The translations under genes were made by a program, and so were the position numbers. Of a stretch of 64,000 nucleotides of DNA, positions 53,629 through 64,000 are shown in pieces. The notes beneath the pieces are model-generated. The model saw only the letters and a program-made list of their open reading frames with translations, was not told the origin of the DNA and searched no databases. How positions within the stretch are numbered: position 1 is the first letter of the stretch; each line of letters opens with the position of its first letter. This DNA is from Sandaracinus amylolyticus. Its GTDB lineage: Bacteria; Myxococcota_A; Polyangia; Polyangiales; Sandaracinaceae. The stretch lies in the NCBI RefSeq assembly GCF_000737325.1, contig NZ_CP011125.1:8990001-9054000 (forward strand), given 5' to 3'.

Positions 53629-54435
53629 TCACGACTCGTCGCGACGCGGTGCGCGCGCGGACGTCATCGTGCCGTGCCCGTTCGACGGCTTCTTCGAGCG
53701 GCCGTTGCCGCTGCGCGGTGCGGGGGCGCGCGCGCCGAGATCACCGGTCTCCACGAGCTCCTTCAGTCGCCGTAGGTCGCTGCGCAGCTGCTGCTCCGGC
53801 GCGAGCCCGAGCCACGACGCGACGTGCGACGCGAGCGCGGCGGCAGGCATCGAGTACACGAGCTCGACCTGGACCTCGGTGCCGCGCCCGTCGCGCGAGC
53901 GCTCGAAGCGCACCGCGCCCTCGTGCGCGATCGGCGAGCCCGGCACCGTGCGCCACGCGATCGCGCGGCCCGGCACGTCCTCCACCAGTTCGGCGTCCCA
54001 CGCGACGCGCGGTCGATGCGCAGGAAAGCCGGGCAGCGGAGTGAGCTCCCACCGCGAGCGCGCGCCCTCCACGCGCACCGACGCGACGTGCCGGAGGAAG
54101 CGCGGCAGCAGCGAGAGATCGCGCCAGAGCCCGTAGAGCTCCTCGGGACGCGCGTCGATCGTGATCGCGCCGCGCACCTCGACGCGCTCGCGCGCGAGCG
54201 CCCGGTGCGCGGTCGCCGTCAGCTCGCGCGACACCGGACATCGCCCGGTCAGGCCGCGGTACACGCCGTATGCGCCGAGCGCTGCGAGCACGACACCGCT
54301 CGCGCGACCGCGCGCGAGACCGAGCGCCGCGAGCGCGACGCCGGCGACCGTCGACACGACGCGCTCGCCCTCGTCGAGCTCTGCTGCCTCGGTGAGCGTG
54401 TCGCGCGGTGACACGCGGATCGCGTCGCTCGCCAT
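53629..54435 (-). CDS. DUF2892-SRPBCC membrane-linked protein
   Basis: A 268-residue protein. The N-terminal part (about 20-70) resembles the DUF2892 domain (ERVVSTVAGVALAALGLARGR, YRGLTGRCPVSREL), with two hydrophobic stretches. Residues 90-230 form an SRPBCC (START-like) lipid or ligand-binding domain (GAITIDARPEELYGLWRDLSLLPRFLRHV, AWRTVPGSPIAHEGAVRFE). The C-terminus is basic and flexible (RSGNGRSKKPSNGHG). ATG 54435 is used. Such fusions occur in bacteria tolerant of membrane stress; the ligand is unknown. Confidence 0.85.
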   Translation of the reverse strand: MASDAIRVSPRDTLTEAAELDEGERVVSTVAGVALAALGLARGRASGVVLAALGAYGVYRGLTGRCPVSRELTATAHRALARERVEVRGAITIDARPEELYGLWRDLSLLPRFLRHVASVRVEGARSRWELTPLPGFPAHRPRVAWDAELVEDVPGRAIAWRTVPGSPIAHEGAVRFERSRDGRGTEVQVELVYSMPAAALASHVASWLGLAPEQQLRSDLRRLKELVETGDLGARAPAPRSGNGRSKKPSNGHGTMTSARAPRRDES

Positions 54436-54595
54436 GCGTGCGGTCCTCCGGGCGCGGGCGATCCTCACGCCTCGATCCGCGACGTAGGTGCACGGCACGG
54501 ACGCACAACGCGGGTGGAGACCCGCCCTTGTGGGCCTCGCGAGCGCGGCCATCTGATGGTGACGAGAGGCGACCGCACGAGGACGAGGAGGCGAG

Positions 54596-55054
54596 ATGGA
54601 GACGAACGCAGTGATCGCGCTGTTGCGCGATCTCGTGCACCTCGACGTCGACGCGATCCATGCGTACGACCAGGCGATCAAGAACATCGACGTCGAGCCG
54701 GTTCGTGCGGAGCTCGAGCGCTTCAAGGGCGACCACGAGCGGCACGTCACGGAGCTGACGACGGCGATCCTCGATCTCGGTGGGACGGCGCCGGTGATCC
54801 GGCGCGACCTCAAGGGTCTGTTCATCGAGGGCATGACCGCGCTGCGCGCCGCGATGGGGACCGAGCAGAGCCTGCGGGCGATGCAGACCAACGAGAAGCT
54901 GACGAACAAGGAGTACGACAAGGCCGCGAAGATGGCCTTGCCTGCTCGAGTGGACGAGCTCGTGCGTCGCAACTACGACGACGAGCGACGTCACCTCGAG
55001 TACATCGAGGACGCGATCGCACGACGCGTCTGGGAGCAGGTGCGGCACGCGTGA
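54596..55054 (+). CDS. DUF2383 ferritin-like protein
   Basis: A 152-residue four-helix protein of the DUF2383 (ferritin-like) group. Metal-type residues are in AIHAYDQAI, GDHERHVTEL, the third helix NEKLTNKEYDKA, and DERRHLEYIEDAI. A di-iron or stress role is inferred from related ferritin-like families. GAGGAGG precedes ATG 54596. A strong hairpin terminator follows at 55108-55143, so it is monocistronic. Confidence 0.9.
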   Translation: METNAVIALLRDLVHLDVDAIHAYDQAIKNIDVEPVRAELERFKGDHERHVTELTTAILDLGGTAPVIRRDLKGLFIEGMTALRAAMGTEQSLRAMQTNEKLTNKEYDKAAKMALPARVDELVRRNYDDERRHLEYIEDAIARRVWEQVRHA

Positions 55055-55107
55055 GCGCGCCGAGGGCTTGCCCTCCGAGGTGCAGCGGGATCGATCGGGT
55101 GCGGGAA

Positions 55108-55143
55108 GGGGCGGGAGAGCGTCGGAAGTCGCTCTCCCGCCCC
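55108..55143 (+). terminator. Rho-independent-type terminator after DUF2383 gene
   Basis: GGGGCGGGAGAGCG / CGCTCTCCCGCCCC forms a perfect 14-bp stem with an 8-nt loop, followed by a T-containing stretch (CGTTTCGTCGTTCTT). It starts 54 nt after the stop. Confidence 0.75.
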
Positions 55144-55159
55144 GACTCGTTTCGTCGTT

Positions 55160-55177
55160 CTTGAACGATCGTTCAAG
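55160..55177. promoter_or_regulatory. 18-bp perfect palindrome CTTGAACGATCGTTCAAG
   Basis: A perfect palindrome in the convergent region between the DUF2383 gene and the glycosyltransferase gene, 27 bp from the latter's stop. The form resembles TetR-family operators, but its place downstream of two genes suits a terminator or an unrelated binding site. A degenerate relative is at 12282-12297. Confidence 0.4.
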
Positions 55178-55204
55178 CGAGCGCCCGGACGCGCAGGCGC
55201 GCGA

Positions 55205-56311
55205 TCAGGCGCTCGAGCGCTCGAGCTCCGCGCTGCGTGCTCCGCGCGCTCGATAGCGCGCGTCGGCGACCCACGACTCGAAGCGCGCGCACGCGGCGTC
55301 GGCGGTGAGCGCAGCGCGGAGCGACTCGGCCCAGCGCGCATGCTCGGCGATCGGCTCGCGCAGCGCGGCCTCGATCGCCGCCACGAACGACGCTCGGTCC
55401 GCGACACGCGCGAGCGGCGAGAGCGCGGCGAGCGCCCCGAGATCGCGCGAGCTCGCCGCGACGACGGGGCGCCCCGACGTCATCACGTCGAGCGCGAGGC
55501 GCGGCTCGTCCCCACCGCTCGTGAGCACGGGCGCGATGCCGATGTCCCATCCCGCGATGTAGCGGGGCAGCTCGTCGTCCCGCTTCTCACCGAGCCAGCG
55601 GATGTTCGGCCGACACGGCAGCGCGCGCACGTCGATCCCGCGCGGCGCCCCGAGCGCGATCACCGAGAGCTCCGGGAGCGCGTCCGCGACGCGCGCGAGG
55701 AGCGCGACGTCGAGGTGCGCGTCGATCGGTGCTGCGAGCCCGAGCCGCGGCCCCGGAATGCACGACTGATCGAGGGGATCGACCCACTCGTCCGCGCTCG
55801 CGCGAGCGTGCCGCGACGCATCGACGATGAGCGGCATGACCTGCACGAGCGCGTGCGCGCGACGGCGCGCGTCGGCGCTCGCGTGCGTCGCGGTGAGCAC
55901 GAGGTCGGCGCGCGCGAGCAGCGCGCGCTCGCCCGGCGCGAAGGGCTCGTCGTCGCAGTCCCACACCACGACGCGCGGCTCCACGCAGCGCGCGACGGCG
56001 AGATCGGCAGCCGCGCGCACCCACAGGATCTCGGCGCGGATCGCGTGACGATCGACGAGCTGCTGTACGAGCGTCGCGAGCGCGGCGCGCGCGCGCACCT
56101 CGTCGAGATCGTCGCGTAGGTGCGGCACGCAGACGACGAGCCCATCGGCGACGCGCATCTCTTCGACGAACGCAGCGGCGACGCACGCATCGCGCACCGG
56201 CGCTTCGATCACGAAGACGCGTCGCGCTCGAGCGAGCGCGTGCAGGAGCGGATGCTCGCGCGACGTCTGGGCGCCCCATCGAGCACGAGTGAAGGCGACG
56301 ATGTCGGTCAT
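55205..56311 (-). CDS. Glycosyltransferase family protein (GT-B type)
   Basis: A 368-residue GT-B enzyme. The N-terminal half has a Rossmann-like start (VAFTRARWGAQTSREHPLLHALA) and VVWDCDDEPF. The C-terminal half has RWLGEKRDDELPRYIAGWDIGIAP and the nucleotide-binding motif DEPRLALDVMTSGRPVVAA (the family E-x7-E region, here with Asp-Glu). It resembles polysaccharide glycosyltransferases of the TuaH/WcaJ-neighbour type. ATG 56311 is used; an in-frame ATG 18 bases upstream is also possible. No other sugar genes are near, so it is an isolated transferase. Confidence 0.85.
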   Translation of the reverse strand: MTDIVAFTRARWGAQTSREHPLLHALARARRVFVIEAPVRDACVAAAFVEEMRVADGLVVCVPHLRDDLDEVRARAALATLVQQLVDRHAIRAEILWVRAAADLAVARCVEPRVVVWDCDDEPFAPGERALLARADLVLTATHASADARRRAHALVQVMPLIVDASRHARASADEWVDPLDQSCIPGPRLGLAAPIDAHLDVALLARVADALPELSVIALGAPRGIDVRALPCRPNIRWLGEKRDDELPRYIAGWDIGIAPVLTSGGDEPRLALDVMTSGRPVVAASSRDLGALAALSPLARVADRASFVAAIEAALREPIAEHARWAESLRAALTADAACARFESWVADARYRARGARSAELERSSA

Positions 56312-56625
56312 CTCGCGCCTGGCGAGCATCGCGCGGCAACTCTGCAATCGACGATCCCGCGTCGTGGGGCGTGGTGCGCGCGCGAAGCCCGCGCGTGCCG
56401 AGGCAACGTGCACGACGCGGCGCGCCCCACCGAGGCGCAGCGCGGCGGAAGCACGCGCGTCGACCGCACATGCGTGCGATCGACGCCGTGTGTTTCCGCG
56501 ACGCGTCGCGATGCGCGTGCGGAGGAGCACATGCGTGGCACGCGCGATGCCCCATCAGCGCGACACCCGAGGCGCGCCGACCCGCGGAGCTCTCCGCACG
56601 AGGCCAAAGCGCGCGAGGAGGACGG
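56312..56625. other. Gene-free interval (about 314 bp)
   Basis: This lies between the divergent glycosyltransferase and the basic protein gene. It is GC-rich, with several weak ribosome-site-like purine runs but no credible gene. The probable promoter of the basic protein lies here; no clear -10/-35 pair was found. Confidence 0.6.
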
Positions 56626-57546
56626 ATGGCGCGGGAGGACAAGAGCCAGACGAGCGCGAGGACCGGCGTCGGGCGCTACGTCGAAGGAGTCGGGACGCGT
56701 CTGAAGCGCGACGAAGATCCGCGCTCGCGCGTCGGGCTCCCGGAGCGCGGCGCGAAGAAGAAGAGCAAGTCGAAGACGAAGGCGATCGATGCCGGCGATC
56801 GCTCCGCGTTCGACGCGCGCGCCACGAACGTGGCCGCGCGCAAGGCAGGAACGCGCGGCCGGACGACGGCGCGCGGCTCGGACGACGAGGACACGAGCGC
56901 GCGCGGCGCGACGAGCTCTGGAGGACGGCGCGTGAAGTCGAAGGCGAAGACGAAGAAGGCGCGCGGGCCGGCCCAGGAGCGGGCACGCGAAGGACTGCGC
57001 GGGCCGAGCGCGCGCGATGCGCGCGCGAAGGGTCGCGAGCCGCGCGGCGAGCACTCGAGCGCGGGCAGCGCGCCCGGCATCGGGACCATCACGCGCCCCG
57101 TCCGCGTGGGCGAGTCGCACTTCATCGAGCGCGACGGCGAGGACGTCCCGCCGGGGCGCCGCCGCGCCGCGGGGACCGTCGGGGGCCGTGCGAAGCCGCG
57201 CCGCGATCACAGCCCGCCCACGCGCGCGGCGAAGGCGAGCGGCGGGCGCTCGACCGGCGCGCGGGGAGGCTCGGGAGGCGGCCGCTCGCGCCCGACCGAC
57301 GCAGGCGCCCATGCCGCCTCGGGGCGCTCGGGCTCGCGCAAGGCGGTGAAGAAGTCGACCGAGCAGGCGATGCGGCCGTCGGTGCGCGGCGCCGCGAGCA
57401 GCGGAGAGCAGCGTGGCGCGACCCTCGGACCGCGGAAGGGAGTCCGCCTCGCGGGCGCCCCCTCGCGCGGCACGAGCAGCAAGCCGGGCTTGGCCCGCGG
57501 CTCGTCGAAGAGCAACGCCGGACGTCGCTCGCGGGCGACGACCTAG
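56626..57546 (+). CDS. Highly basic, low-complexity protein (possible nucleoid protein)
   Basis: A 306-residue protein rich in Arg, Lys, Gly, Ser and Ala, with few hydrophobic residues and no predicted fold. Lys-rich clusters (KKKSKSKTKA, KSKAKTKKARG) and Ser/Gly repeats resemble tails of histone-like or RNA-binding proteins. GAGGAGGA precedes ATG 56626. A strong terminator follows. Nucleic-acid binding is inferred only from charge. The composition is unlike any neighbour. Confidence 0.75.
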   Translation: MAREDKSQTSARTGVGRYVEGVGTRLKRDEDPRSRVGLPERGAKKKSKSKTKAIDAGDRSAFDARATNVAARKAGTRGRTTARGSDDEDTSARGATSSGGRRVKSKAKTKKARGPAQERAREGLRGPSARDARAKGREPRGEHSSAGSAPGIGTITRPVRVGESHFIERDGEDVPPGRRRAAGTVGGRAKPRRDHSPPTRAAKASGGRSTGARGGSGGGRSRPTDAGAHAASGRSGSRKAVKKSTEQAMRPSVRGAASSGEQRGATLGPRKGVRLAGAPSRGTSSKPGLARGSSKSNAGRRSRATT

Positions 57547-57553
57547 ACGGAAT

Positions 57554-57591
57554 GAAGAAGCCCCACGACGCACGCGTCGCGGGGCTTCTTC
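57554..57591. terminator. Bidirectional terminator between the basic protein and rplQ
   Basis: GAAGAAGCCCC (57554-57564) pairs with GGGGCTTCTTC (57581-57591) around a CGACGC/GCGTCG inner stem. T-rich ends (CTTCTTC) on both strands fit a rho-independent terminator for either gene. Confidence 0.8.
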
Positions 57592-57648
57592 TCGTCGAGG
57601 CGGGCTCAGGCTCCGTCGTGCCTCCGCCGTGGAGGCACGAGCGGTGGA

Positions 57649-58137
57649 TCACTCCGCCGCGCTCTCTCCGAGGATCTCGATCATCGCCATCGGCGCGTTG
57701 TCGCCGCGGCGCGTGTTGAGCTTCGTGATGCGGGTGTACCCGCCGCCCTTCTTGTCCTTGATGCGCGCGAGGAAGCGCGGCGCGATCTCGTGGAAGAGCT
57801 TGTAGACGAGATCGACCTCTTCGGTGCTGCCGTCCGAGTTGGTCTTGGTCAGCGTCTTCGGCAGGTCGCGCGCCACCAGGCGCTGCGCGTGGACGCGACG
57901 CGCGACGACCTCGCCACGCTGCTCCTCGCTCAGCTTCCCGATGTCGACGGTGAGCTCGTCACCGAGCCGCGCCGCGCGCGTGATGAGGCGCTCCACCGTT
58001 CGGCGGAGCTCCTTCGCCTTCGCGTCGGTCGTCTCGATCTTCTCGTGCAGCACGAGGTTGCCCGCGAGGTTGCGGAGCATCGCGCGGCGGTGCGGGGTAT
58101 TGCGGCCGAACTTCCGGCCCGACTTGCGGTGACGCAT
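57649..58137 (-). CDS. rplQ: 50S ribosomal protein L17
   Basis: A 162-residue L17. The conserved N-terminus [13 protein letters not shown] and the helix [22 protein letters not shown] are intact. It is the last gene of the alpha operon. An extension of about 40 residues relative to many bacteria covers the C-terminal part ([20 protein letters not shown]). ATG 58137 matches the family start. It is followed by the bidirectional terminator. Confidence 0.97.
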
Positions 58138-58200
58138 GGCTTCCTACCGTCTCTCTACTTCGCTCGTCTCGCGACGATCGCCTCGAATCGGCCGCTCAGT

Positions 58201-59217
58201 TCAGGCCTGCGCCTGCTGCTGCTTCCAGCGCTCGAGCATCGCCGGCCAGTTGTCGATCTTCATGCCCAGCGAGAGGCCCATGTCGGCGAGGATCTCCTTG
58301 ATCTCCTTCAGCGACTTGCGGCCGAAATTCTTCGTCTTGAGCATCTCGGCCTCGGTCTTCTGGACCAGCTCGCCGATGAGATGGATGTTCGCGTTCTGCA
58401 GGCAGTTCGCGCTACGGACCGAGAGCTCGAGCTCCTCCACCGAGCGGAAGAGGTTCTCGTTGAGCGGCTCCTCTTCCTTCGAGTCGAGGGTCGTCGCCTC
58501 TTCCTCTTCCTCGAAGTTGATGAAGATCGAGAGCTGGTCCTTGAGGATCTTCGCGGCGTACGCGACCGCGTCGTGCGGCTTCACGCTGCCGTTCGTCCAG
58601 ACCTCGAGCGCGAGCTTGTCGTAGTCGGTGATCTGACCGACGCGCGCGTTGGTGACCGTGTAGTTCACCTTGCGGATCGGCGAGAAGAGCGCGTCGATCG
58701 CGATCGTCCCGATCGGCATTCCCGGCGTCTTGTTGCGATCGGCCGGCACGTACCCGCGCCCGACGTTGATCGTGAGCTCCGCCGAGAAGCGGCCGCCCTT
58801 GGCGACCGTGCAGATGACGTGCTTCGGGTTGAGGATCTCGACCTGGTCGTTGACCTGGATGTCACCCGCGGTGACCTCGCAGGGACCTTCGCGGTCGATC
58901 CGGAGGACGTGGGTCTTCGGCGAGTGCGCCTTGACCACGACTTCCTTCAGGTTGAGCACGATGTCCGTGACGTCTTCCACGACGTCCGGCACCGACGTGA
59001 ACTCGTGGAGCGCGCCGTCGATCTTCACCGCCGTGATTGCCGCGCCCTGGAGCGAGCTCAGCAGGATCCGGCGCAGCGCGTTGCCGAGCGTGATGCCGAA
59101 GCCGCGCTCGAGCGGCTCGCACACGAACTTGCCGTAGGTCGGCGTCGCGTCCTCGACCGGGACGCTCTTCGGCTTGATGAGATCGCGCCAGTTGCGTGCA
59201 ACGAACGTCGTCGACAT
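58201..59217 (-). CDS. rpoA: RNA polymerase alpha subunit
   Basis: A 338-residue alpha subunit with the N-terminal assembly domain (about 1-235, [22 protein letters not shown]) and the C-terminal DNA/regulator-binding domain (about 255-325, [22 protein letters not shown]). The start ATG 59217 begins the conserved [18 protein letters not shown] perfect terminator-like hairpin lies upstream, in the gap from rpsD, suggesting an additional control point or own promoter for rpoA. Confidence 0.98.
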
Positions 59218-59286
59218 GGAATCCGAACCTCTCTCCAGCGCGGAAATATGACCGCGCTCGGAACCCCGACGGGCCTAGAGAAAAGA

Positions 59287-59315
59287 CCACGGGCGGACAC
59301 CATGTCCGCCCGTGG
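59287..59315 (-). terminator. Terminator or attenuator between rpsD and rpoA
   Basis: CCACGGGCGGACA / TGTCCGCCCGTGG forms a perfect 13-bp stem with a 3-nt loop 11 nt after the rpsD stop. On the minus strand it is followed by TCTTTTCTC. This fits a rho-independent terminator that may let only part of the transcripts reach rpoA. Confidence 0.8.
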
Positions 59316-59326
59316 AAAGACTTCGA

Positions 59327-59953
59327 TCAGCGCGAGTAGAACTCGACGATCAGCTGCTCCTTGATGGGCAGCGTGATCGCCTCGCGGACCGGCTGGCTCA
59401 CCACCTTGCCGGTGAACGCGCCCTTGTCGAGCGAGAGCCACTCCGGCACGCCGCGACGCTCGACGCCTTCGAGCGCCGTCACGATGCGGCCCTTCTGGCG
59501 GCTCTTCTCGCGGATCGTGATCGTGTCGTTCGGGCGAACGAGGTAGCTCGGGATGCTGACGGTCTTGCCGTTCACGAGCACGTGCTTGTGGCGCACGAGC
59601 TGGCGACCGTCGCTGCGCGTCGCCGCGAAGCCGAGGCGGTAGCAGACGCTGTCGAGACGGCGCTCGAGCAGCGCGAGCAGCGCCTCACCGGTCACGCCCT
59701 TGCCCGCGTCCGCCGACGCGAAGTACTTGCGGAACTGGCGCTCGAGCACGCCGTAGATACGACGCACCTTCTGCTTCTCGCGAAGGCGGATGCCGTACTC
59801 GGTCGCCTTCGAACGACGCTGGCCGTGCTGGCCGGGCGGGTACGGACGGCGATCGAACGCGCACTTGTCGGTGTAGCAGCGGTCGCCCTTGAGGAAGAGC
59901 TTCTCCCCCTCGCGACGGCAGAGCTTGCAGGACGGGCCGGTGTAGCGAGCCAT
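59327..59953 (-). CDS. rpsD: 30S ribosomal protein S4
   Basis: A 208-residue S4 of the zinc-binding type: Cys9, Cys12, Cys26 and Cys31 form the zinc site at the N-terminus. The S4 RNA-binding region ([31 protein letters not shown]) is intact. S4 usually autoregulates its operon. ATG 59953 matches the family start. It is followed by a strong hairpin before rpoA. Confidence 0.97.
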
Positions 59954-59970
59954 CTCTCAGTTCCTCTACT

Positions 59971-60363
59971 TCAGACGCGGCGACGCTTGGGCGGGCGGCA
60001 GCCGTTGTGCGGGATCGGGGTCACGTCACGGATGAGCGTCACGCGCATGCCGGCCATCTGGAACGCGCGGAGGGCCGACTCGCGGCCCGCGCCCGGGCCC
60101 TTCACGAAGATCGCGACGGTCGTCATGCCGTGGTCCTGCGCCTTGCGAGCCGCGTCTTCGGCGGCGAGCTGCGCCGCGAACGGCGTGCTCTTGCGCGAGC
60201 CCTTGAAGCCACGCGCGCCCGCGCTGCTCCACGCCACCACGTTCCCCGCGAGGTCCGTGACGGTGACGATCGTGTTGTTGAAGGTCGACTGCACGTGCGC
60301 GATGCCCGTGCCGATGTTCTTCTTGACCTTCTTCTTGCCCTTGGCTGCCTTCGGCTTCGCCAT
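59971..60363 (-). CDS. rpsK: 30S ribosomal protein S11
   Basis: A 130-residue S11. The N-terminus is Lys-rich ([13 protein letters not shown]) and the core is conserved ([38 protein letters not shown] at the C-terminus). ATG 60363 matches the family. It is in the alpha operon, 17 bp before rpsD. Confidence 0.98.
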
Positions 60364-60418
60364 CTCTCAGATACTCCGGTGAGGTGATCCCCGTCGCTCG
60401 CTCGAGGCTCTTCCGAGC

Positions 60419-60784
60419 TCAGCGACGGACGGCGCTGCCGCGACGCGGGCCCTTGCGGGTGCGCGCATTCGTGTGGGTGCGCTGGCCGCGCACGGGAAGG
60501 CCACGACGATGACGCAGCCCGCGATAGCACCCGAGGTCCATCAGGCGCTTGATGTTGATGGCGATCTCGCGGCGGAGATCACCCTCGACCTTGAACTGCG
60601 TGTCGAGGAGATCGCGGATCTTCTTGACGTCGTTCTCGTCGAGATCGTCCGCCTTCTTCGTCTCGGGAATCCCGGCCTTCTCGCAGATCTGCTTCGCGAT
60701 CGCGGGACCGATCCCGTAGATGTACTGGAGAGCGATGACGGTGTGCTTGCGACCAGGAAGGTCGACGCCGGCGATGCGTGCCAT
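60419..60784 (-). CDS. rpsM: 30S ribosomal protein S13
   Basis: A 121-residue S13, complete from [19 protein letters not shown] to the basic tail [14 protein letters not shown]. The helix-turn regions ([19 protein letters not shown] and [18 protein letters not shown]) match the family. It is first of the rpsM-rpsK-rpsD group and follows rpmJ by 15 bp. Confidence 0.98.
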
Positions 60785-60799
60785 GACTCGATTCCTCTT

Positions 60800-60913
60800 T
60801 CAGCCCTGACGCTGCTTGTGGCGCGGGTTCTCGCAGATCACGCGCACGGTCCCCTTGCGGCGGACGACCTTGCACTTCTCGCAGATCTTCTTGACGCTCG
60901 GACGGACCTTCAT
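60800..60913 (-). CDS. rpmJ: 50S ribosomal protein L36
   Basis: A 37-residue L36 of the zinc type with Cys11, Cys14, Cys27 and His32. The sequence runs [17 protein letters not shown] to a basic tail (RHKQRQG). It is located between infA and rpsM, as in many bacteria. Confidence 0.95.
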
Positions 60914-60970
60914 CGCAGCCTCGCTCTTACTTCCAACTCTCTACGGGAGAAAACTTCCGACTGAGAATCC

Positions 60971-61183
60971 TCAGTCACCGGCGCGAGCAGTGATGCGCGC
61001 ACGGCTGGTGTCCGCGGGGGACACTTCGATCATCACGCGGTCGCCTCGGAGCAGCTTCACGATCGAGTGCCGACTCCGAATCGGCAGGGATGCGACGAAG
61101 CGACGACCATCTTCGCTGCGCACCGCGTACAGACCTCGAGGCAGCTCGTCTTCGACCACTGCTTCGAGAACCGTGCCCTTCAT
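60971..61183 (-). CDS. infA: Divergent IF-1-like protein
   Basis: A 70-residue S1/OB-fold protein at the usual infA position (adk-infA-rpmJ). It matches IF-1 in GTVLEAVVEDELPRGLYAV and GDRVMIEVSPADTSRARIT, but the central GKMRK-YIRI ribosome-contact segment is replaced by PIRSRHSIVKLL. It lacks the N-terminal Arg extension of the other copy (14585). It may be a specialised or decaying paralogue; the 14.6-kb gene keeps all IF-1 marks. ATG 61183 is used. Confidence 0.82.
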   Translation of the reverse strand: MKGTVLEAVVEDELPRGLYAVRSEDGRRFVASLPIRSRHSIVKLLRGDRVMIEVSPADTSRARITARAGD

Positions 61184-61196
61184 ACGAAGGGCGAGC

Positions 61197-61844
61197 TCAC
61201 TTCCCGAGGATCGACTCGATCCTGCGGGTCACGTCTTCCACCGCGCCGGTCCCGTCGACCTTCGCGACGATCCCCTTGTCCCCATAGTGGGCGAGGATCG
61301 GGAGCGTGTTCTCGAGGTACACCGCGTTGCGCGTGCGCACCTTTTCCTCGCGGTCATCGTCGCGTTGGACGATGCGATCGCTGCCGCAATTGCCACAGCG
61401 GCCCGTCGAGGGGGGCGGATTATAGCTCACGTGGTAGACCTGTCCACAGGCCTCACACGATCGCCTGCCGCTAATTCGATCCACGATCGCCTCGGTCGGC
61501 ACCTCGAGCGCGATCACCTTCTCGATTCGACGGCCCATCTCCGCGAGCATCGCGTCGAGGGCCTTCGCCTGATCGACCGTACGCGGGTAGCCGTCGAAGA
61601 TCGCGCCACCCTTCGCGTCGGCCTGCACCAGGCGGTTGCGCAGGAGCTCGATCACCAGCGAGTCGGGCACGAGCAGGCCCTGCGTCATGTACTCGTCGAA
61701 CTTCTTGCCGAGCGCGGAGCCGCTCTTGCGCTCCGCACGCATCATGTCGCCCGTCGAGATCTGCGGGATCCCGAGCCGATCGACGAGGAACTTGCTCTGC
61801 GTGCCCTTCCCCGCCCCCGGGGGCCCGAACAGGATGAGATCCAC
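61197..61844 (-). CDS. adk: Adenylate kinase
   Basis: A 215-residue adenylate kinase, converting ATP plus AMP to two ADP. The P-loop is GPPGAGKGTQ, and DGYPRTVDQA is the AMP-site region. The LID domain has the zinc-type Cys set (CEACG and CGNCG), as in many Gram-positives and myxobacteria. GTG 61844 is chosen because it gives the conserved VDLILFG strand and has a GGGGGG run about 8 nt upstream; it lies 13 nt after the secY stop. The map gene that usually follows adk is absent here. Confidence 0.95.
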   Translation of the reverse strand: MDLILFGPPGAGKGTQSKFLVDRLGIPQISTGDMMRAERKSGSALGKKFDEYMTQGLLVPDSLVIELLRNRLVQADAKGGAIFDGYPRTVDQAKALDAMLAEMGRRIEKVIALEVPTEAIVDRISGRRSCEACGQVYHVSYNPPPSTGRCGNCGSDRIVQRDDDREEKVRTRNAVYLENTLPILAHYGDKGIVAKVDGTGAVEDVTRRIESILGK

Positions 61845-61857
61845 GTCTAGCCCCCCT

Positions 61858-63186
61858 TCAGGCCGTGCGGCGACCACGGATGCGCGGACCACGCGGACCG
61901 GTGAGGCCCTCGTAGTGGCGCGTGATGAGGTGCGACTCGATCTGCTGCACGGTGTCGAGCGCGACGCCGACGACGATCATCACCGACGTGCCGCCGAAGA
62001 AGAACGGCACGTGGAACGAGTCCTGGAGCACCTGCGGGACCACGCAGACGAGCGCGACGTAGATCGCACCGCCGACCGTGATGCGGGTGAGCACGCGGTC
62101 GATGTACTCGGCCGTCGCCTTGCCCGGGCGAACCTTCGGGATGAAGGCGTTCTGCTTCTTGAGGTTGTCCGCGACCTCGACCGGCTGGAACGTGACCGCC
62201 GTGTAGAAGAACGCGAAGAACACGATCATCACGACGTAGAGCAGGTTGAACAGGAACGACCCCGGCTGGATGTAGTCGTTCACCGTCTCCATGCCCGGGA
62301 TGATCCCGACGAGCTGCTGCGGGAACATCAGGAGCGACGACGCGAAGATCGGCGCGATCACACCGCTCGAGTTCACGCGGAGCGGCAAGTGCGAGGTCTG
62401 GCCGCCGTAGAGCTTCCGACCGACGAGCCGCTTCGCGTAGTGGATCGGAATGCGGCGCTGGCCACGCTCGAAGAACGTGATCACCGCGATCACGAGCAGC
62501 ACGATGGCCGCGACCATCAGCAGCGAGACCGGCTGGATCTGACCGATCTGGACCTGCTCCATCGTCTGCACGCCGGCGCGCGGAAGGTCCGCGACGATGC
62601 CCGCGAAGATGATGAGCGAGATGCCGTTGCCGATGCCGCGCTCGGTGATCTGCTCGCCGAGCCACATGATGAACGCGGTGCCGGTCGTCAGCGCGATCAC
62701 CGTCAGGAACACGAAGCCCCAGCCCGGATCGCGAACGACGTCGCCGACCGTCGAGAAGCCCGTGCCCGCGCCACCCGCGTTCAGGCCCTGGAAGTAGTTC
62801 GCCCAGAAGATGCCCTGGACGACCGAGATCACGACGGTGCCGTACCGCGTGTACTGGTTGATCTTCCGCTGGCCCGCCTCGCCTTCCTTGCGCAGCTCGC
62901 CGAGCTGCGGGACGACGATCGTCATCAGCTGGAGCACGATGCTCGCCGTGACGTAGGGCATGATGCCCAGCGAGAAGATCGACGCCTGCTCGAGCGCGCC
63001 GCCCGAGAACAGGTTGAACATCCCGAGGAAGCCGCCCTGCTGGCCGATGTACTCGCGGAGCACGTTCCGGTCGATGCCGGGAATCGTGACGAAGATCCCG
63101 ATGCGATAGACCGCGATCATCCCCAGCGTGAAGAGGATGCGGCGGCGGAGCTCGGGGATCTTGGCGATGTTCGCGAAGGCGCTCAT
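61858..63186 (-). CDS. secY: Protein translocase subunit SecY
   Basis: A 442-residue SecY with ten TM helices, forming the translocon channel with SecE and SecG. Conserved landmarks are [30 protein letters not shown], the plug region [22 protein letters not shown], and [15 protein letters not shown] 63186 starts the conserved N-terminus. A hairpin (63215-63239) precedes it, in the gap after rplO. Confidence 0.98.
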
Positions 63187-63214
63187 GCGAGTGGAATCGG
63201 TGCTCGGAGTGACG

Positions 63215-63239
63215 CGAGCCCGCGAAGATCGCGGGCTCG
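63215..63239 (-). promoter_or_regulatory. Perfect 11-bp hairpin between rplO and secY
   Basis: CGAGCCCGCGA / TCGCGGGCTCG with a 3-nt loop lies 42 nt after the rplO stop and about 28 nt before the secY ATG. There is no U-tract. It may be a processing or stability signal separating ribosomal-protein from secY expression. Confidence 0.5.
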
Positions 63240-63281
63240 GTTCACCGTGGGGCTGCTGTCTCCCTCAACCGCGACCGGAGG

Positions 63282-63833
63282 TCAAGCCTTTGCAGCGGCC
63301 TTCGGCTTCTTGCCCTTCGCGGGCTTGTTCTTGTGCCGCACGACCGGAGCGACCTTCTTCTCGATCGTCTCGATCGAGCCGCCGGCCTTCTCGATCTTCT
63401 CCTTCGCCGAGGCGCTGAACGCGTCCGCCTTGACGACGAGCTTCTTCGAGAGCTCACCCGTGCCGAGAATCTTCACGCCGTCCCAGCGGCCCTTCACCAA
63501 GCCGCGTGCGCGGAGCGCCGCCTCGTCGACCGTCGCGCCAGCCTCGAACGCGTCGAGCGACTTGACGTTCACCGGGGCGAGGTCGCGCGGGAACAGCGAG
63601 TTGAAGCCGACCTTCGGGAGGCGGCGGTTGAGCGGCATCTGGCCGCCCTCGAAGTGCAGCTTGTGGATGTTGCCGGGCTGACGGGCCTTCTGACCCTTCT
63701 GACCGCGGCCCGCGGTCTTGCCCAGGCCCGATCCGGGACCACGGCCGACGCGCAGCTTCTTCGTGACCGCACCCTTCGGGGCGCGCAGGCGCGAGAGGAT
63801 CGGCACCTCTGCGCTGATCTTCTCGTCAGCCAT
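63282..63833 (-). CDS. rplO: 50S ribosomal protein L15
   Basis: A 183-residue L15, somewhat longer than usual because of a basic C-terminal tail (HKNKPAKGKKPKAAAKA). Conserved segments are LRVGRGPGSGLGKTAGRGQKGQKAR and FEGGQMPLNRRLPKVGF. ATG 63833 overlaps the rpmD stop by eight bases. Confidence 0.97.
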   Translation of the reverse strand: MADEKISAEVPILSRLRAPKGAVTKKLRVGRGPGSGLGKTAGRGQKGQKARQPGNIHKLHFEGGQMPLNRRLPKVGFNSLFPRDLAPVNVKSLDAFEAGATVDEAALRARGLVKGRWDGVKILGTGELSKKLVVKADAFSASAKEKIEKAGGSIETIEKKVAPVVRHKNKPAKGKKPKAAAKA

Positions 63834-64000
63834 CGATCTCCTCCACCGACACGAGGTGGATCACCTTCTTGATCGCACCGCGGAACGCGGGCGTGTTCGC
63901 CACGACGACCTCGGTGTGCGGGCCGCGGAGACCGAGACCCTTGAGCGTGCGGCGCATGGCCTCCGTGCGGCCGATGCCGCTGCGGAGCTGCTTCACCTTG
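63826..64000 (-). CDS. rpmD: 50S ribosomal protein L30, 5' end beyond the window
   Basis: The last 57 codons of L30 are present. The visible C-terminal part includes KVKQLRSGIGRTEAMRRTL and GLGLRGPHTEVV, typical of L30, then a longer tail ending VSVEEIDG. The TGA (63826-63828) overlaps the rplO start by eight bases, so the two are translationally coupled. The N-terminus is not in the window. Confidence 0.93.
   Translation of the reverse strand, partial: KVKQLRSGIGRTEAMRRTLKGLGLRGPHTEVVVANTPAFRGAIKKVIHLVSVEEIDG

Follow-up and report, generated by a model that had tools for sequence, protein, structure and literature searches.

The alpha operon of the soil bacterium Sandaracinus amylolyticus carries a terminator-like hairpin (59287-59315, minus strand) between rpsD and rpoA, which we read as probably a leaky intrinsic terminator that would keep expression of rpoA-rplQ below that of rpsM-rpsK-rpsD. 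How one gene cluster yields much more ribosomal protein than RNA polymerase is an old question, and in E. coli part of the answer lies in translation. Placed right at the border of the two gene classes, a terminator would be a simple answer to this unequal output. The hairpin is real and makes sense as a variant of known biology, not as a new system; in the open-licence literature (titles and abstract openings), we found no report of a bacterial terminator between rpsD and rpoA and none of a Myxococcota rpoA leader. What gives the case broader interest is the pattern seen at this junction across Myxococcota, together with a new candidate leader RNA found there.

The window, that is, the whole 64,000-nt stretch analysed, comes from a genome assembled as a single contig of 10,327,335 bases. 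Its right end holds secY, adk, infA, rpsM, rpsK, rpsD, rpoA and rplQ as open reading frames, all on the minus strand; the gene names are putative assignments, from the initial annotation and the sequences themselves. Used as tblastn queries, rpsM, rpsK, rpsD, rpoA and rplQ returned the same neighbour order in relatives. Relatives were found by search both for rpsD (S4, 208 aa; 59327-59953, minus strand), whose product presumably has a zinc-type N-terminus, judging from its cysteines, and for rpoA (RNA polymerase alpha, 338 aa; 58201-59217, minus strand). The last gene of the cluster is rplQ (L17, 162 aa; 57649-58137, minus strand), followed by a 17-bp hairpin (57554-57591, minus strand) with only ATTCCGTC as a tail, likely the end of the operon. 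Elsewhere in the cluster, TGGACA-16-TATAAT (61446-61419, minus strand) matches 11 of 12 consensus positions within adk, upstream of infA, and may be chance or an internal promoter. An 8-bp hairpin followed by GAAGTTTTCT spans the infA stop codon (60958-60977, minus strand), ahead of rpmJ/rpsM.

Read directly from the window, the stem of the junction hairpin starts 11 nt after the rpsD stop codon (59327-59329, minus strand). The hairpin, CCACGGGCGGACATGGTGTCCGCCCGTGG, runs from 59315 down to 59287 and forms a perfect 13-bp stem with a 3-nt loop, 10 of the 13 pairs being G-C (folding energy of -26.5 kcal/mol). It is followed by TCTTTTCTCTAG and then by 57 nt to the rpoA ATG at 59217, which include a second, weaker hairpin (AGCGCGG-TCATATTT-CCGCGCT, 59237-59258, minus strand) directly 5' of the rpoA ribosome site; the distance from stem end to ATG is 69 nt, in a total gap of 109 nt. 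The tail, TCTTTTCTC (59278-59286, minus strand), has 6 T in 9 positions and lies on the coding side only (score 2.87 vs 0.09 on the other strand). A 184-nt region around the hairpin, folded as the opposite (plus) strand, had a z-score of -3.89, and a terminator scan of 54000-64000 returned nine terminator-like sites (vs 3.4 in shuffles), listing 59287-59315 with 13 pairs. The sequence features of an intrinsic terminator are therefore present, with a stable GC-rich stem, a short loop and, straight after the stem and on the strand of the gene only, a U-rich tract, here broken by a C (UCUUUUCUC). Direct reading and the terminator scan both bear out the perfect stem and T-rich stretch on the coding strand that the initial annotation had described.

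The hairpin was compared with a baseline of 464 kb (about 88% coding), consisting of the window plus 20 segments of 20 kb spread over the same genome and scanned on both strands, with home-made gene calls that missed small genes such as infA. Hairpins that combine a stem of at least 8 bp with 5 or more T in the 9 nt that follow numbered 15, among which the rpsD-rpoA hairpin ranked first by tail score and was the sole one with at least 6 T. Its tail was also the most T-rich (6; best other 5) among the 42 gene-following hairpins with stems of at least 9 bp, 18 of which lie in convergent gaps. Long stems (at least 12 bp, at most two G-U pairs) occurred 95 times: 17 fell in the 7.5 kb of convergent gaps, 51 in coding sequence, 10 on the sense strand and three on the antisense strand of tandem gaps shorter than 150 nt, and the remaining ones elsewhere. 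Such hairpins cluster at convergent gene ends and therefore indicate where genes end in this genome; their T tails are mostly poor. No second copy of the junction hairpin was found in the window within three mismatches, and in the whole genome it matches only itself and its own palindrome, which rules out a repeat element.

Conservation was examined in the sister species (G001), in which the stem carries one change (A-U to G-U), the loop has one additional base and the tail is identical. The rpsD-rpoA gap is identical in 104 of 110 columns between the two species, and four-fold degenerate sites differ at 14 of 119 positions in rpsD and 17 of 174 in rpoA. A further relative (L003) has a related tail, GGTTCTCTCTCTAG, after an 11-bp hairpin of different stem sequence, and we infer that the two hairpins are homologous. 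Within the family of the window, L004 and L005 have a 12-bp hairpin without a T tail and L006 has a 10-nt gap without hairpin; in L009, no hairpin of at least 9 bp was found in the gap. The device is thus not universal even within this family, in which the rpsD search gave no match in four of 10 genomes. Among all loci collected, L007 and L008 were omitted as copies of L001, and L096 has no rpoA in reach. The GGTCATAYT core of the second hairpin stands directly before the rpoA ribosome site in the genus of the window, L003 and L009.

Across Myxococcota, the rpsD-rpoA gap has a median of 137 nt (100 distinct gaps), and rpsM-rpsK, rpsK-rpsD and rpoA-rplQ have medians of 26, 30 and 36 nt (80, 83 and 91 gaps); for the remaining phyla in the sample, the rpsD-rpoA median is 71 nt vs 25, 29 and 19 nt for the three other gaps. 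In this comparison, the Myxococcota set consists of all loci from the order to which the window belongs and 17 selected from 80 further loci, two of which (L033 and L034) were included for their sequence identity to loci of that order; some Myxococcota may sit in the other set. The initial annotation had remarked that alpha operons normally continue through rpoA, which holds as gene order and fails as a sign that something exceptional happens here, because Myxococcota generally have their longest alpha operon gap between rpsD and rpoA. Hairpins of at least 9 bp were found in 26 of 95 distinct Myxococcota gaps (dinucleotide shuffles: mean 5.16, maximum 9 in 50 rounds), counting identical gaps once and leaving out gaps of 25 nt or less as well as loops longer than 8 nt, so that terminator-like hairpins seen by eye, for example in L137, L155 and L062, are missed. 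In nine of the 26, the 9 nt that follow on the coding side contain at least 4 T (0.22 such cases in shuffles, maximum 1), and the mirror control, an A-rich stretch before the hairpin, gave one case in 95 gaps. The same combination of hairpin and T tail occurs in none of 80 rpsM-rpsK gaps, none of 83 rpsK-rpsD gaps and one of 91 rpoA-rplQ gaps. These counts are not independent, the rows of the survey being related to each other, and the nine T-tailed cases (two in the window's genus, L003, one in Anaeromyxobacter, three of Myxococcaceae type and two of Polyangiaceae type) represent fewer than nine independent ones because they share lineages. Altogether, the proposed terminator-like hairpin between rpsD and rpoA is upheld by a T tail that surpasses those found where genes converge in this genome and by its recurrence in Myxococcota.

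The sequence, strand and position of the hairpin, its conservation in the sister species and its recurrence are direct observations, from which we infer termination, its leakiness and its purpose. In the proposed mechanism, RNA polymerase, having transcribed rpsM-rpsK-rpsD, would meet the hairpin and its U-rich tail; the fraction that stops would leave message for the ribosomal proteins, and the remainder would read on into rpoA and rplQ. The outcome would be less message for the alpha-subunit (and L17) than for S13, S11 and S4, which would suit a cell with a far greater need for ribosomes than for RNA polymerase. A weak or unusual promoter between the hairpin and rpoA may add to expression. 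If the terminator were strong and no promoter followed it, two essential genes would be starved, and therefore either its efficiency is modest or a promoter was missed. The break in the U tract also counts against termination. Against this dosage logic, L17 is itself a ribosomal protein, yet it is encoded behind the hairpin. The attenuation envisaged by the initial annotation would stand as plain partial termination, and not as control linked to S4.

Internal terminators have precedents in other operons. Ribosomal protein-RNA polymerase operons of Methanococcus maripaludis are reported to contain internal terminators, likewise placed between an upstream ribosomal protein gene and a downstream RNA polymerase gene and likewise tied to unequal dosage (PMC10450193). 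The placement is the same here, a ribosomal protein gene and an RNA polymerase gene in the same orientation (rpsD and rpoA, minus strand). The archaeal system differs in that it relies on U-rich tracts and the factor aCPSF1 and was demonstrated by mutation, whereas termination in Sandaracinus is predicted (PMC10450193); moreover, unlike in M. maripaludis, the downstream unit of Sandaracinus also carries a ribosomal protein gene, rplQ. Clostridial operons for ABC importers also contain internal intrinsic terminators, whose GC stems are described as longer and whose U residues as fewer (PMC9045158): they share with the Sandaracinus hairpin a bacterial setting, long GC-rich stems, poorer U tracts and genes needed unequally, but involve other genes in another phylum and are backed by transcript measurements.

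Alternatively, the message could be made through rplQ and then cut or trimmed, the hairpin shielding the 3' end of rpsM-rpsK-rpsD; we consider this unlikely. Hairpins without a T-rich tail are the majority at the Myxococcota junction (17 of 26), which fits protection better than termination, and intergenic stem-loops that set ratios within operons by selective RNA processing and stabilization are reported (PMC8219983). Such stem-loops, however, act after transcription and need no T tract, whereas the tail here is the most T-rich of the genome sample and T tails at the junction exceed both shuffles and the mirror control. Similarly low is the chance we give to a full border between transcription units, with an efficient terminator and with rpoA-rplQ under a separate promoter within the 69 nt that follow the stem. 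This arrangement of hairpin and putative promoter does exist in the order: in family f5 (L019, L022, L027, L029), an invariant CTTTGACA-17-TATGGG with a conserved leader precedes rpoA, the TTGACA-17-TATGGG standing 151-159 nt before the gene (A2 columns about 1044-1100), and a clear or strong hairpin lies ahead of the promoter-like site in L019, L022 and L029. By consensus and conservation, the predicted rpoA promoter is clear in these four genomes. Also in favour of a border, the region ahead of rpoA has retained GGTCATAYT in L001, L002, L003 and L009. In the window itself, however, the best sigma-70-like site overlaps the hairpin and scores only 3.0 (on a hand-entered matrix), which 6.4% of 361 coding windows also attain, as do 18% and 32% of two sets of 65 and 94 other gene-upstream windows; a sigma-70 promoter in the rpsD-rpoA gap is therefore not convincing by score.

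Switching of the hairpin by S4, or by translation of rpsD, is very improbable. The stem begins close enough to the rpsD stop codon to be likely in reach of a ribosome on that codon, and in E. coli S4 regulates the alpha operon and acts in antitermination (PMC10931766). However, stop-to-stem spacings of 11 nt or less are common, being found in 12 of the 42 gene-following hairpins (this one included), and because of this we treat ribosome-protected termination only as a part of the S4 explanation. No S4 leader reached the Rfam threshold in 57600-64000, which rules it out at that threshold; the sole S4-related Rfam signal in the cluster is an Alpha_RBS match at 60752-60809 (18.4 bits vs a threshold of 38, E 0.69). 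Nor was a comparable competing antiterminator found in the 150 nt upstream of the hairpin, and holding the 3' arm unpaired is about 20 kcal/mol worse (-86.2 vs -105.9). The link to S4 suggested by the initial annotation thus found no support at either level; a protein-dependent switch would be compatible with the missing antiterminator. The E. coli leader (RF00140) resembles the present case in controlling genes of the rpsM-rpsK-rpsD-rpoA-rplQ cluster, and S4 leader candidates are known in Clostridia, Fusobacteriales, Bacteroidia and Flavobacteria (PMC7247131), but these leaders bind S4, are listed for rpsM or rpsD onward and have no match in the window. In E. coli, repression by S4 hits the neighbouring genes as well as L17 but spares rpoA (PMC10931766), and therefore separate control of rpoA has a precedent. 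Least probable of all is a DNA-level operator or a chance palindrome: the dyad symmetry is perfect at the DNA level, but the change in the sister species breaks it and keeps the RNA pair (G-U), and the chance expectation is far lower. Partial termination at the hairpin is thus the reading that we prefer.

A different device appears at the same junction in family f12, which we take to be Polyangiaceae, where a conserved element of ~66 nt lies just before rpoA. A structure drawn by eye from 38 of 42 distinct candidates (near-duplicates L125, L146, L156 and L157 left out, L135 trimmed) gave model R1; among its 16 pairs, 13 have both partners changed in some sequences. Its covariation score on these 38 sequences was 0.634 (shuffles 0.230; at most 0.125 when slid), and 0.650 (at most 0.135 when slid) on 55 distinct sequences in the model alignment, which leans to the structure. 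At E 0.01 or better, R1 matched 56 of 138 genomes of the order, once each, 54 of them in f12; the matches in G028 and G070, outside f12, are weak, have none of the five alpha operon genes adjoining and were rejected as chance. Among the fetched loci of the order, 51 of 60 belong to f12 and 49 of these 51 have a match. In the 78 loci searched, all 57 matches are on the strand of rpoA, at a distance of 19-73 nt (median 29) ahead of its start. The element was noted in L119-L172 and L199-L206, for example at L123:1844-1909 (plus strand) and L199:1713-1779 (minus strand). No rpsD was found in eight of the 57 loci, and in six of these eight, rpsM and rpsK precede the element and rpoA and rplQ follow it. 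The fetched alpha operon stretch has no rpsD in the eight Polyangiaceae-type genomes of L199-L206, which have only a divergent rpsD (43-47% identity) elsewhere.

Rfam gave no match at the curated threshold at the R1 element in 20 loci (six of them f12), and none of the matches below threshold in L123 fits. R1 is absent from the family of the window, the window included: its best match there (13.8 bits, E 0.43) is far from the rpsD-rpoA gap, and in 59100-59400 it reaches at most 8.8 bits with filters off, members scoring 31-78. On comparative grounds, R1 is a candidate new cis-regulatory RNA for rpoA-rplQ, and as such this Polyangiaceae leader offers a concrete new candidate regulator of the two genes. 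We tentatively suggest, at somewhat less than even chances, that in Polyangiales and relatives the junction is a dedicated control point that uncouples alpha (and L17) from the other ribosomal proteins through lineage-specific devices: Sandaracinus and genomes of Myxococcaceae type would use a terminator, f5 a promoter followed by a long leader, and Polyangiaceae a structured leader, R1, which remains beside rpoA where rpsD is gone from the operon and so would probably sense a product of rpoA-rplQ, or S4 in trans.

Other elements were seen in the alpha operons of relatives. The Rfam L17-Actino-Proteobacteria leader (RF03132) matches a Corallococcus alpha operon locus (L064:5958-6015, plus strand) and has no match in the alpha cluster of the window. 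Distinct from R1 are also two conserved stretches before rpoA, CCGCGTGCCC...GGCGCACG in Myxococcaceae types (L060, L064, L067) and GATGG..(C/T)CAGGTAG in family f7 (L117, L118, L159, L169).
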